In this document: piece after piece, positions 53,868 through 64,000 of the stretch | Layout: each line of letters opens with the position of its first letter | Position numbering within the stretch: position 1 is the stretch's first letter | Assembly: GCA_020186115.1 (NCBI GenBank) | Contig: WSYJ01000060.1 | Span: forward strand, 2,232,001-2,296,000 | DNA: 64,000 nt | Source: Histomonas meleagridis | Lineage: Eukaryota; Parabasalia; Tritrichomonadida; Dientamoebidae | Direction: 5' to 3' | Notes under the pieces: generated by a model | Database searches by the model: none | The model's input: only the letters and a program-made list of their open reading frames with translations | What the model was told of the DNA's origin: nothing | Made by a program: the position numbers and the translations under genes

Positions 53868-55168
53868 CACAAACAAAAAAAAAGAAATGTTGAAAGAATT
53901 GGAATTTCTGTATTTTATAATTGCATATCATTAGTAAATATTACAATTCCAAACAAGGTAACAGAAATTGGAAATTTTGCATTTTATAATTGCACATCAT
54001 TAGTAAATATTACAATTCCAAACAAGGTAATAGCAATAGGGAATTATGTTTTTGCATTATGTACGAGTATAGAAACGATTTCTATTGGAGAAAATGTAAG
54101 TGCAATTGAAACCAATGCATTTAGTTCATGTACAAAACTTAAATTCATTAATGTTTCGAATGAAAATTTATATTTTGCCAATGATCAAAATGATGGAATT
54201 TTATATGATAAGCAAATCAAAAGAATCAATATTTATCCATCAGGAAATTTAAATATTAAATTTGAAGTTCCATTTTCAGTAAAAGAAATTGGAAGTTATT
54301 CATTTGTTTCATGTATTAATTTAGAAACGATTTATATTGGCGAAAATGTTACTTCAATTGAAGCAAATGCATTTTCATCATGCGATAAACTCAGATGCAT
54401 TTATTACTTTGGCGAAACAGATCCGACAAATTCATCAAATATATTTATAGATGTAGCAGCAAAAATTGTCATGACAACAAATTCATATAATGGATCAACA
54501 TTTGGCGGATTAAATGTGACTAAAGGAACAATAATAAATGAATGCGCCTTATTAACACATTTGCTAAGACAAATACATTTACTGAATCGAATACATTAAT
54601 GAAATCAAATGCATTTACGAATTTATATGAAATTTCATTTGTTGTTTCGAATTCATTTACTTTTTCATATTCAAATGGTATAACATTAACGAATACAATA
54701 ACATTAACACAATCATTATCTATTACACAAACAATAAGTATTTATAAATCGACTTATTCGAATTCAATATCTGTTTCTATTTTTAATTCATCATTAACTT
54801 ATGTTTTGAGTGAATTTATTTATTACGAATATACTGTTATTGTGTATCCGACTTATTACATATATTATAGTAATTTCTTTACTATTATACACCAAAATGA
54901 AAATATTAATGATGATAATTAAAGCACAATAAAAATTATAAGTGTATGCGTTGCAGTTGTCGTAATTGTAATAATTGCAATACTTATCATAGTTTTATTG
55001 CGAATTCATAATCAGAAACAAATAAGTAATGAACAAGAAGCAAAAAGTTTCGAAGAAAATCAAAATGAAAAAGAAAATACATTTGTAATGGGAACATCAA
55101 CGAATAATATTGATGAAGATCCATTTGCTGATGATTTTAAAGAAGAAAAATTCATCAATCATATTTAA
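53868..55168 (+). pseudogene. Broken BspA-like leucine-rich-repeat surface protein gene
   Basis: The first stretch (53868-54599, no ATG) encodes LRR_5/BspA repeats: two near-identical 69-bp units (IGNFAFYNCTSLVNITIPNKV), then IETISIGENVSAIETNAFSSC and LETIYIGENVTSIEANAFSSCDKL. The frame then shifts near 54540-54600 into a Ser/Thr-rich stalk (54542-54922). An in-frame TAA (54920-54922) cuts this stalk before a transmembrane helix (VCVAVVVIVIIAILIIVLL) and a cytosolic tail ending DEDPFADDFKEEKFINHI. BspA-like proteins are an expanded trichomonad surface family tied to adhesion, and the DPF in the tail looks like an endocytic adaptor motif. Missing 5' end, frameshift and stop together make it a pseudogene. 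Confidence 0.85.
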
Positions 55169-60998: not shown

Positions 60999-62096
60999 AT
61001 GAACAACATTTTTAAAATTTGGTTTAAACCTGATCAATTAATTCATTATTCCTCAACTGCTCTTATGCATTATTTTATATCTTTTGAAAAAATTATTTTT
61101 AACTTGAGTGAAGATAATATTTTAGAATCAACCCGTGCTACTATAGATCAAATAAATAATGATTATGTTTCGTCTTGCTCAAGCTTAATTCTTAGTAGAT
61201 TGATATATTCATCAATTCTTTCACAAATGAAAGATATTAATTTATATATTAATTTCATGAAACAAATTGAAATAAAAGAACAAGAAATCACCAAAAGTAA
61301 TTATGAATTGATTAATAAATTCAGAGATTTTCTTCTTGATATAAACTCACAAGAATCATATTTTATTCTAGAAAAAATGATTGGAATGAATTTAGTTTCA
61401 TTAAATTTAGTTGAAAATAAAAGGACTTATTATTTTGCACATCATTTTCCTAATAAATTGCCAAATGACATAAATAAGCAATATTACATGTGGAATTATC
61501 ACAAAGAAGTTTATGAAAAACTATCAAATAATGATTTTGAACATCATAAAAAATCAGTTGAAGAAGGACATAATCCGAACAAAATATTAAAAGTAATTCG
61601 AAATGATGAAATAGAAAAGCTTCAAGAAATATCATCGCAAAATGATTTTGATTTTAATCAATATGTTGAACCATCACTTTATGAAAGATGTGATTTTATT
61701 AATCAAAAAAATGTTACATTAATTGATTATGCAGCATTTTTTGGATCAGTTAAATGTTTCAAATATTTACTTATGAATGATGCAGATGTAAGTAATACAG
61801 GTAAATATGCTGTTGCAGGTGGAAATGAAGAAATTATTCATTTATGTGAACAAAATCATTCATCATTTGAAGATGCATATGAAGCAGCAATTGAATATCA
61901 TCGAAATGATATCTTTCATTATATTTATGAAAATAAAATTAGTGAAACCAAAAATTTAGGAGAAAGAATTATTAAGTTATTTTTAACTGGTAAATTCATT
62001 AATTATGAAATACTTAACTTTTTACTTAAACAAGAAGTAATTGATATTAATGCTAGATATATTTGTTTATATATAAGATTTTTTTTAAGATTTTGA
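60999..62096 (+). CDS. DUF3447/ankyrin-repeat protein (first, contiguous part)
   Basis: A 365-codon frame from a true ATG (MNNIFKIWFKPDQLIHYSS). The N-terminal 180 residues are a helical domain of the trichomonad type. DUF3447 follows (about 190-260: NKILKVIRNDEIEKLQEISSQ, PSLYERCDFINQKNVTLIDYAAFFGSVKCFKYLLMN), then ankyrin-like helices (about 265-345, ending LLKQEVIDINAR). The frame then runs into a short hydrophobic AT-rich tail and TGA, exactly where a linker of the 170-bp array begins, so the true protein may continue if linkers are removed. Ankyrin proteins of this class are highly expanded in trichomonads, with unknown partners. Confidence 0.8.
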   Translation: MNNIFKIWFKPDQLIHYSSTALMHYFISFEKIIFNLSEDNILESTRATIDQINNDYVSSCSSLILSRLIYSSILSQMKDINLYINFMKQIEIKEQEITKSNYELINKFRDFLLDINSQESYFILEKMIGMNLVSLNLVENKRTYYFAHHFPNKLPNDINKQYYMWNYHKEVYEKLSNNDFEHHKKSVEEGHNPNKILKVIRNDEIEKLQEISSQNDFDFNQYVEPSLYERCDFINQKNVTLIDYAAFFGSVKCFKYLLMNDADVSNTGKYAVAGGNEEIIHLCEQNHSSFEDAYEAAIEYHRNDIFHYIYENKISETKNLGERIIKLFLTGKFINYEILNFLLKQEVIDINARYICLYIRFFLRF

Positions 62097-62140
62097 TATA
62101 TTAAGATAATATTTGAAATTCATTTAAATTAATTCAAAAA

Positions 62141-64000
62141 CTACTTTTCTTTGTAGTTTCAAATGGTCATCTGGAATTAACTAAATTACTTCTTGAACAA
62201 AAAGGATTTGATATAAATGAAAGAGATATTCATTTATTTTATTTATAATTCATTACAATAATTTTCAATTTTAAAATAACATTTGGAAATTATTAAAAGT
62301 ATTTAATACTATATTTATCCTAGCATCTGGAAATGGTTATACAGAAATAGTCAAATTACTTCTTGAACAAGAAGGAATTAATATTTATATATACAATATT
62401 ATTTTACTTTGTTTTTTATTTATTACAATAATTTGAAATTTCAAAATAATATTTAGAAATTATTTAAATTATTTAAAACAGCACTTATATGTGCAGCTGA
62501 AAATGGTTCCATAGAAATAGTCAAATTACTTCTTGAACAAAAAGGATTTAATATTAATTCCAAAGATTCTTATTTGTTTTATTTAATATTTATTTTAATA
62601 ATTTGGAAATTCAAAATATTATTTGGAAATTGTTTAAATTATTTTATACAGCACTTATGTATGCATCCGCAAATGGTCATACAGATATAGTTAAATTACT
62701 TCTTGAAGAAAAAGGATTTGATATTAATTCTCAAGACATATATTTATTTTAAATAAAACTCATATTTTTAATTTCATGTTTCAAAATGTTATTTGGAAAT
62801 TATTTAAATTATTTAAAACAGCACTTATTATAGCAGCTAAACATAATCATAGAGAAATCATTAGATTACTTCTTGAACAAAAAGGAATTGATATCAACGC
62901 TAAAGATGTTTATTTATGTTATTTAATATTTATTTTTTGAATTGTATATGCCAAAATAATCTTTGGAATTTGTCTAAATTATTTAGAACAGTCTTTATGG
63001 AAGCAGCTAAATGTTGTATCATAGAAACATTTAAATTACTTCTTGAACAAAAAGGAATTGATGTAAATGCAAAAGATATTTATTTGTTATCTTCAAAGTT
63101 CAATTTTATAATTTGATATCCCAAAATAATATTTGGAAATTATTTAAATTATTTAATAATGCACTTATATTGGCATCTGCTGATGGGAACTTAGAAGTAG
63201 TTAAATTACTTCTCGAACATGAAAAATTTAATACAAAAACTGAAAATTTTTGTTTATTTTATTTAATGCTTATTTTAATATTTTGAAATTTCAAAATATT
63301 ATTTATAATTCATTTAAATTATTTAATAAAGCATTTATTTCGGCATGCGGTTTTGGGTGTATAGAAGTAGTTAAATTAATTCTTAAACAAGAAGGAATTA
63401 ATATTAATGCTAAAGATATAAATATTCTTTATTTGATATTTCAAAATATAATTTGGAAAGTGTTCAAATTATTTAAAACAGCACTAATTAAAGCATCCTC
63501 AAAAGGTTATACAGAAATAGTTAAACTACTTCTTGAACAAAAAGGAATTGATGTCAATGCTAAGGATATTTATTCATTTAATTTAATGTTTAATTTAATC
63601 ATTTTATATTCCAAAATTATATTTGGGAAATATTTAATGTATTTCGAACAGCACTAATGTTAGCATCTTGGGATAATCATGGAAAAATAGTTGAGTTATT
63701 ACTTAAACAAGAAGGAATTGATATAAACGGTAAAGATATTTATTTGTTATATTTAATATATATTTTAATATTTTAAAATATTATAATAATTTTTGGAAAT
63801 TATTTGAAATATTTTTGACAGCGCTTATGTATGCATTTTCGGGATATAATACAAATGTAATTAAATTACTTCTTAAACAAGACGGAATTGATATTAATTC
63901 CAAAAATATTAAATTATTCTATTTTATATTTATTTTAATTATTTAATATTGCAAAATAATGTTCGGAAATTATTTGAATTATTTAGAACAGCACTTATAT
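62141..64000 (+). repeat. 170-bp tandem array of ankyrin modules, open at the window end
   Basis: Using the codon after T in TAL as the anchor, modules start at 62141, 62311, 62481, 62651, 62821, 62991, 63161, 63331, 63481, 63651, 63821 and 63991. Steps are 170 bp throughout except one of 150. Each module encodes about 31-34 ankyrin residues (consensus TALIxAAENGHTEIVKLLLEQ then KGIDINAKDIY) and has no stop or indel. The approximately 68-bp linker (consensus ends ATTTGGAAATTATTTAAATTATTTAAAACA) carries stops in most copies. Since 170 is not a multiple of three, consecutive modules fall in different frames. Only the 150-bp step (63331 to 63481) keeps the frame. The last module is cut by the window edge. 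Confidence 0.92.

Follow-up and report, generated by a model that had tools for sequence, protein, structure and literature searches.

How a protein could be read from coding modules whose separating sequences break the reading frame is the question raised by the 3′ end of a 64,000-nucleotide stretch of the Histomonas meleagridis genome (contig WSYJ01000060.1, positions 2,232,001 to 2,296,000 of the forward strand; the window is this whole stretch), where ankyrin-repeat (ANK) modules alternate with linkers of about 68 bases. The original prediction, made from the sequence alone, offered three readings of this array: that the linkers are atypical introns, that the modules are a silent store of cassettes, or that the array is a decaying satellite. 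The reading as introns is best supported because the first exon is intact, the modules are free of stops, C-terminal caps with stops are present, both linker frames contain stops, junctions that naturally lack a linker keep a 34-residue register, and a linker of equal length occurs in a protein of another organism; the silent store is disfavoured, and the arrays tested contradict a decaying satellite. From sequence, we estimate a probability of roughly 0.56 that the linkers are non-canonical introns cut out of the RNA, with neither fixed GT-AG borders nor the trichomonad motif ACTAACACACAG. The locus would then be one multi-exon ankyrin-repeat gene, made up of a first exon, ANK modules of 34 residues each and a terminal cap that contains the stop, from which the linkers would be excised at the RNA level ahead of translation, joining the modules in frame. 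Such an intron would have multiplied because the duplicating unit is a module plus a linker.

The array is the 3′ portion of a single ankyrin gene that starts with the ATG at position 60999 and has a first exon of approximately 355 codons of the DUF3447 type. The open reading frame from this ATG (60999-62096) enters linker 1, and the array continues the same reading frame and extends beyond the end of the window, where the overlapping locus L009 supplies two more modules and then the cap, TALMIASKNGYKDIVNLIQEKIEAKRG, whose stop codon ends 411 bases past the window. The window and L009 together give a whole gene of 13 full ANK modules, a capping module with a stop and 14 linkers, in which the internal modules have no stops, 11 of the 14 linkers have a stop in the frame in which they are entered (entry frame) and 6 of the 14 have one in the frame in which the next module is read (exit frame). 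In Pfam, the first exon matches PF11929 (DUF3447) with 32 bits, above the cut-off of 26.9, and has sub-threshold ANK matches as well; four of the 11 complete modules of the window were submitted, and all four exceed the curated cut-off of 21.1 for PF00023 (ankyrin repeat), with 27.1-35.2 bits. It had been claimed that all 11 complete modules are open across the ANK segment, that the linkers break the frame and that the spacing is exactly 170 bp; the first two claims are confirmed, and the third holds for nine of ten intervals but fails for 63325-63475, which is 150. The features of the gene within the window are as follows, with junctions of the first exon and linker 1 placed to within a few bases.

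60999..62063, + strand: first exon (open reading frame and DUF3447), from the ATG to linker 1, ending ...VIDINARYI
62061..62134, + strand: linker 1
62135..62227, + strand: ANK module 1
62228..62304, + strand: linker 2
62305..62397, + strand: ANK module 2
62398..62474, + strand: linker 3
62475..62567, + strand: ANK module 3 (PF00023, 31.8 bits)
62568..62644, + strand: linker 4
62645..62737, + strand: ANK module 4 (PF00023, 35.2 bits)
62738..62814, + strand: linker 5
62815..62907, + strand: ANK module 5
62908..62984, + strand: linker 6
62985..63077, + strand: ANK module 6
63078..63154, + strand: linker 7
63155..63247, + strand: ANK module 7
63248..63324, + strand: linker 8
63325..63417, + strand: ANK module 8
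63418..63474, + strand: linker 9, short class (unit of 150 bp)
63475..63567, + strand: ANK module 9 (PF00023, 31.3 bits)
63568..63644, + strand: linker 10
63645..63737, + strand: ANK module 10 (PF00023, 27.1 bits)
63738..63814, + strand: linker 11
63815..63907, + strand: ANK module 11
63908..63984, + strand: linker 12
63985..64000, + strand: start of module 12; the gene goes on through module 13 to the cap (L009)

Similar arrays were collected from the genome (43,276,120 bases in 121 contigs) by choosing loci whose DNA matches part of the window array well; 20 of the 34 requested were fetched, yielding 253 module-to-module spacings. One partly decayed locus, L028, contributes to these spacings and is excluded from the statistics of units, spacing modulo 3, stops, substitution ratios, structure and GT-AG pairs. 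The other 19 loci, L009 among them, contain 144 units of 170 bp, reduced to 111 nonredundant units by dropping those at least 92% alike; the window copy was excluded as the same DNA as L009, L001-L008 were excluded as duplicates, and column statistics use only units with a spacing of 170. Across the genome, a 34-base module pattern with at most three mismatches has 3,592 sites and a 36-base linker pattern has 3,738, the reversed control of each having none, and a homologue of the first exon matches at least 101 places over approximately 300 residues or more (101 of 6,906 candidates scored). One fetched array holds 25 linkers. An ANK module directly follows the linker at all ten loci listed with a seemingly single linker, and within this small sample of ten no linker was found outside the ANK family. 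These genes form a real family, very abundant, whose linkers break the frame.

Only two of the 111 modules contain a stop, compared to 49.3 ± 4.7 expected with the same substitutions randomly placed and 50.7 ± 3.9 with columns shuffled, which bears out the earlier claim that the openness of the modules exceeds chance. Because the modules were originally found via stop-free pieces, possibly favouring open ones, they were recounted from the linker alone: outside L028, a stop in the module's own frame is present in 1 of 159 internal modules and a stop in the +1 frame in 145 of 159. Of the modules that no linker follows, 10 of 35 contain a stop in the same recount. In a separate count by array, the internal modules are entirely free of stops in 20 of 23 arrays; the last scored module stops within 30 residues or fewer in 10 of 23 arrays, and six further caps lie behind the last linker (five re-translated, one by hand). 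The array ends look like protein ends. The second codon positions of the modules are more conserved, and the ratio of nonsynonymous to synonymous substitution rates (dN/dS), a check that the original prediction had proposed, is 0.8-1.1. Taken alone this value would mislead, because it is dominated by five hypervariable codons picked by entropy (the first after the linker and module codons 5, 8, 9 and 11), for which the corresponding ratio of proportions (pN/pS) is 1.17 versus 0.70 elsewhere. Several of these codons coincide with positions that are randomised in designed ankyrin proteins, and the binding-surface codons of these ankyrins look diversified. The modules are under protein-level selection, and the units do not lack coding constraint as those of a non-coding satellite would.

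The linkers are AT-rich, approximately 68 and sometimes approximately 48-54 bases long, and stand at nearly every module-module junction. As had been claimed, most copies carry stops, in the entry frame in 92 of the 111 units of 170 bp and in the exit frame in 49. On the 3′ side, TTT at unit positions 165-167 is 94-97% conserved and the next codon (168-170) is hypervariable with a stop in 0 of 111 units; this switch locates the linker's 3′ end with a precision of a few bases. Towards the 5′ end, none of the 111 units has a stop at codon 91-93 and six have one at codon 94-96. The exact junctions probably lie within unit positions 91-99 and 158-167.

Junctions without a linker indicate what the joined protein would look like. 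One is found inside the array of L043 (...NISQQNNRGKCAL...) and others in the paralogues L029 and L031, which have the same N-terminal domain; the junctions that were counted have four residues between D and T, equivalent to 34 residues per repeat, the register that removal of 68 bases would give. The homologue P0006 has one linker-free junction too. Of 17 homologues fetched as ENA records (P0002-P0016, P0018 and P0019), seven end one residue past D of the first junction. Among scored places, the best identity to this genome is 61% for P0005 and 55% for P0003, so neither of them derives from it. P0003 continues for 30 entry-frame residues after D to a wrong-frame end, ...RHL, and the consensus here likewise continues for 30 residues to ...QHL. 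P0006, P0013 and P0014 extend exactly 12 residues beyond D, to the site of the common entry-frame stop here, and presumably end at a stop rather than at a contig end; P0012 appears by hand count to be one codon longer. A frame-breaking linker of equal length is present in a protein of another organism, and together the breaks in P0003 and in P0006, P0013 and P0014 make it unlikely that the frame break is an artefact of this assembly. Short linkers of the same kind that stay in frame (...VYFNNLIFQNNIWNFFKLF...) are found in P0174-P0185 and P0188.

Tritrichomonas foetus and T. musculus have annotated ankyrin-repeat proteins with DUF3447 that are homologous to the first exon, but the T. foetus homologue P0022 has contiguous ANK repeats where seen, whereas a linker stands at nearly every junction here. 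In P0243 and P0254, ANK modules are parted by in-frame linkers of approximately 33 residues that share a WNL motif; thus, ankyrin modules parted by linkers may have a wider distribution. When region 400-540 of an L038 open reading frame was searched against proteins, general ankyrins swamped the result, and no title on these arrays was listed in the open-licence PMC literature on Histomonas, on Tritrichomonas or parabasalid introns, on Trichomonas ankyrin introns and on Dientamoeba ankyrins.

Several results weigh against removal of the linkers as introns, beginning with the splice signals. There is no GT-AG at a constant place: a frame-restoring pair that gives a repeat of 32-36 residues is present in just 13 of 111 units, in agreement with the earlier statement that the linkers lack a universal GT start; most linkers are thus without the 5′ GT and 3′ AG at frame-compatible positions that a spliceosomal intron would have. 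An AG occurs anywhere within positions 158-167 in only six of 111 units. Searches for GT-AG, GC-AG and AT-AC borders found no shared pair compatible with retaining the T-A-L codons, part of which the commonest AT-AC pair would delete. The trichomonad 3′ motif ACTAACACACAG, stated earlier to be missing from the linkers, is indeed not a feature of them: it has three exact matches in the genome versus 3,738 linker-like sites, and it occurs at chance level (3 exact matches against 2 for the reversed control; 131 against 130 with one mismatch). Since the exact motif occurs only three times, introns that carry it can hardly account for all 573 annotated in the genome. A canonical intron does exist in locus L041 (contig C91 near position 123554), GTATGT...ACTAACACACAG, 71 nt, in a DHHC gene whose joined flanks form one open frame; its presence implies that the ordinary splicing machinery reads signals other than those of the linkers. 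The downstream exon of that gene matches the DHHC profile with 42.6 bits, its first residue aligning to profile position 31, and the upstream piece by itself matches nothing in Pfam. A search for canonical introns with 6-30 bases between motifs found none, the pattern being too narrow, and a wider one gave candidates of 71 and 93 bases, of which the 71-base candidate is the one that joins an open frame.

The lengths of the linkers also count against their free removal. Module-to-module spacings outside L028 avoid values of 1 modulo 3 (166 of 213 are 2, 40 are 0 and seven are 1), which an intron that is freely removed does not predict. In part this avoidance reflects descent from one 170-bp unit, and in part a linker quasi-period of approximately 20 bases: by our own reading the linker consensus consists of four quasi-repeats of about that length, so losses of 20 bases are expected. 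Frame-keeping deletions, considered as proof of translation, are weakened and not removed by these quasi-repeats; deletions of 14 or 17 bases and insertions of three are not accounted for by them, and some linker sequence could be translated. Exit-frame stops in the linkers are mildly depleted, 49 versus 62.5, 67.2 and 60.3 expected (z from -3.1 to -5.2) in shuffles that ignore relatedness, and the depletion exceeds that of three control codon sets over the whole linker stretch (z of -0.4, 0.0 and 0.4). A skip of fewer than ten bases would connect the entry and exit frames in 166 of 211 linkers. Within the linkers, no clear codon-position periodicity was found.

These results of spacing and stops speak for translation of all or part of the linkers, in which the short ones would be in-frame inserts of approximately 17 residues in the ANK hairpin and the long ones (14 to 20 bases longer) would be handled by a very small intron, by ribosomal frameshift or by ribosomal bypass. 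Consistent with this, 34 of 38 spacings below 164 are divisible by 3, a run of four units is open in L036, and in-frame linkers occur in P0174-P0185 and P0188, although these proteins are predicted open reading frames, among which open linkers are over-represented. Yet in 32 of 211 linkers the skip would have to exceed 25 bases (in a few cases probably through a missed module), and linkers of this sort occur in 11 of the 20 arrays whose modules lack stops; 12 of 32 listed short in-frame linkers hold stops, as counted by eye; the exit-frame stop that 49 of 111 long linkers keep amounts to a depletion far below that of the modules; and the control codons in one sub-stretch swing from z of -4.2 to +3.7. 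Short frame-breaking segments inside open genes are known as translational bypassing elements, in gene 60 of phage T4 and as byps in mitochondria. The linkers resemble them in this respect, but their consensus, inspected by eye, lacks matching take-off and landing codons, and they lack convincing structure. Partial translation is kept as the main rival because the spacing and exit-frame results weigh for it and the long skips and remaining stops against it, and it is judged unlikely.

The linker RNA structure is not convincing. The consensus folds as a nested hairpin, no better than shuffles, with a minimum free energy z of -0.08 for the consensus and a mean of -0.05 over 60 linkers. A small excess over shuffles that ignore relatedness is nevertheless left: standard pairs make up 0.854 versus 0.844 ± 0.003 and double changes number 19 versus 11.7 ± 3.1 for the linker structure, and 0.828 versus 0.816 ± 0.002 and 40 versus 22.8 ± 4.1 for an extended structure. 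None of the 40 pairs with the highest mutual information joins two linker positions, and Rfam gave no match to L009 above the gathering score and one below it.

The remaining explanations, namely silent store, satellite and assembly error, fit worse than the reading as introns. Open modules beside linkers that are not open, hypervariable binding-surface codons, and the seven of 17 homologues that end right behind the residue after D of the first junction would all suit a silent store, in which cassettes recombine into expressed genes and arrays are untranslated past the first exon. The contiguous, linker-free gene of these modules that was to be searched for did not turn up: among 150 of 9,173 candidates scored, contiguous runs of two or more modules reach 55%, and matches of at least 79% cover a single module or pass through an in-frame linker. 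Because the arrays carry their own N-terminal exon, with a homologue at the 101 or more scored places, and often end in their own cap, a silent store is disfavoured and appears improbable. High copy number would be expected also of a satellite decaying from one ankyrin gene, and L028 (C72:128500-138000) has stops, through frame slips, in 9 of 43 modules counted, or in 6 of 37 internal modules when located from the linker; L028 is either a decaying array or a site of consensus errors within a long near-identical repeat. Elsewhere the stop counts of the modules (1 of 159 internal; 2 of 111 against approximately 50 expected), the more conserved second codon positions and the intact first exons and caps make a satellite highly improbable, and it is rejected on module stop statistics for the arrays tested, L028 alone looking partly decayed. 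An assembly error, in which a nanopore consensus dropped one base per unit from a true unit that is in frame, has a basis in the published assembly, which the cited part of its description gives as nanopore-based with short-read polishing (PMC8529796). Such an error has the slightest chance of all, given that module frames and first exons are clean, that the 170 spacing is constant across units that differ in sequence, that units keeping the 5′ part of the linker and losing other parts are in frame as assembled, and that P0003, from outside this genome, shows the same break.

As putative introns, the linkers share features with two known kinds. Spliceosomal introns of trichomonads, as characterized in the cited part of PMC12316389, have GT/AG borders and a branch site fused to a 12-base 3′ motif; the linkers resemble them in being short and in that their removal would restore the protein frame, but have no constant GT, no 3′ AG and no fused branch-site motif. 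The portion of the H. meleagridis genome report cited here (PMC8529796) counts 573 introns, carried by 5.2-5.7% of genes with no gene having more than one, in contrast to the 14 linkers of this gene and the 25 of one array. Nonconventional introns of euglenids, according to the cited parts of PMC4770533 and PMC6221363, have variable non-canonical borders, occur in nuclear protein genes and are removed by machinery that is unknown, their ends being joined by RNA structure. The candidate borders of the linkers likewise show no invariant dinucleotide and lie in nuclear protein genes, but the linkers are near-identical copies, stand only beside ANK modules where examined and have no convincing end-joining structure. 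Non-canonical introns are a known kind, and there is a real chance that these are something new. A fuller proposal, which falls somewhat short of even odds, is that several thousand near-identical AT-rich introns of approximately 68 and 50 bases, lacking GT-AG and branch-site signals and all within one ankyrin family with hypervariable surface codons, are removed in this intron-poor parabasalid by a pathway not yet described, or are hopped by ribosomes.

If the linkers are introns, the 3,738 linker-like sites would outnumber several-fold the annotated introns given in that portion of the genome report (PMC8529796), with many per gene, and their recognition would need signals unlike those described for trichomonad introns in the cited part of PMC12316389. 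Gene catalogues of H. meleagridis and its relatives would then fragment a very large ankyrin family; in this gut parasite of poultry, many protein genes are apparently split into pieces of approximately 34 amino acids. Whether nuclear protein genes outside Euglenozoa commonly contain non-spliceosomal introns can be tested directly on these arrays.

Two other repeats were observed. The sequence ACTAACACATAG recurs at C9:2517-24247 and C84:1707642-1716860, often approximately 826 bases apart, pointing to another long tandem repeat. Within the window, positions 53897-54045 hold a 69-bp tandem repeat that resembles BspA-type leucine-rich repeats.
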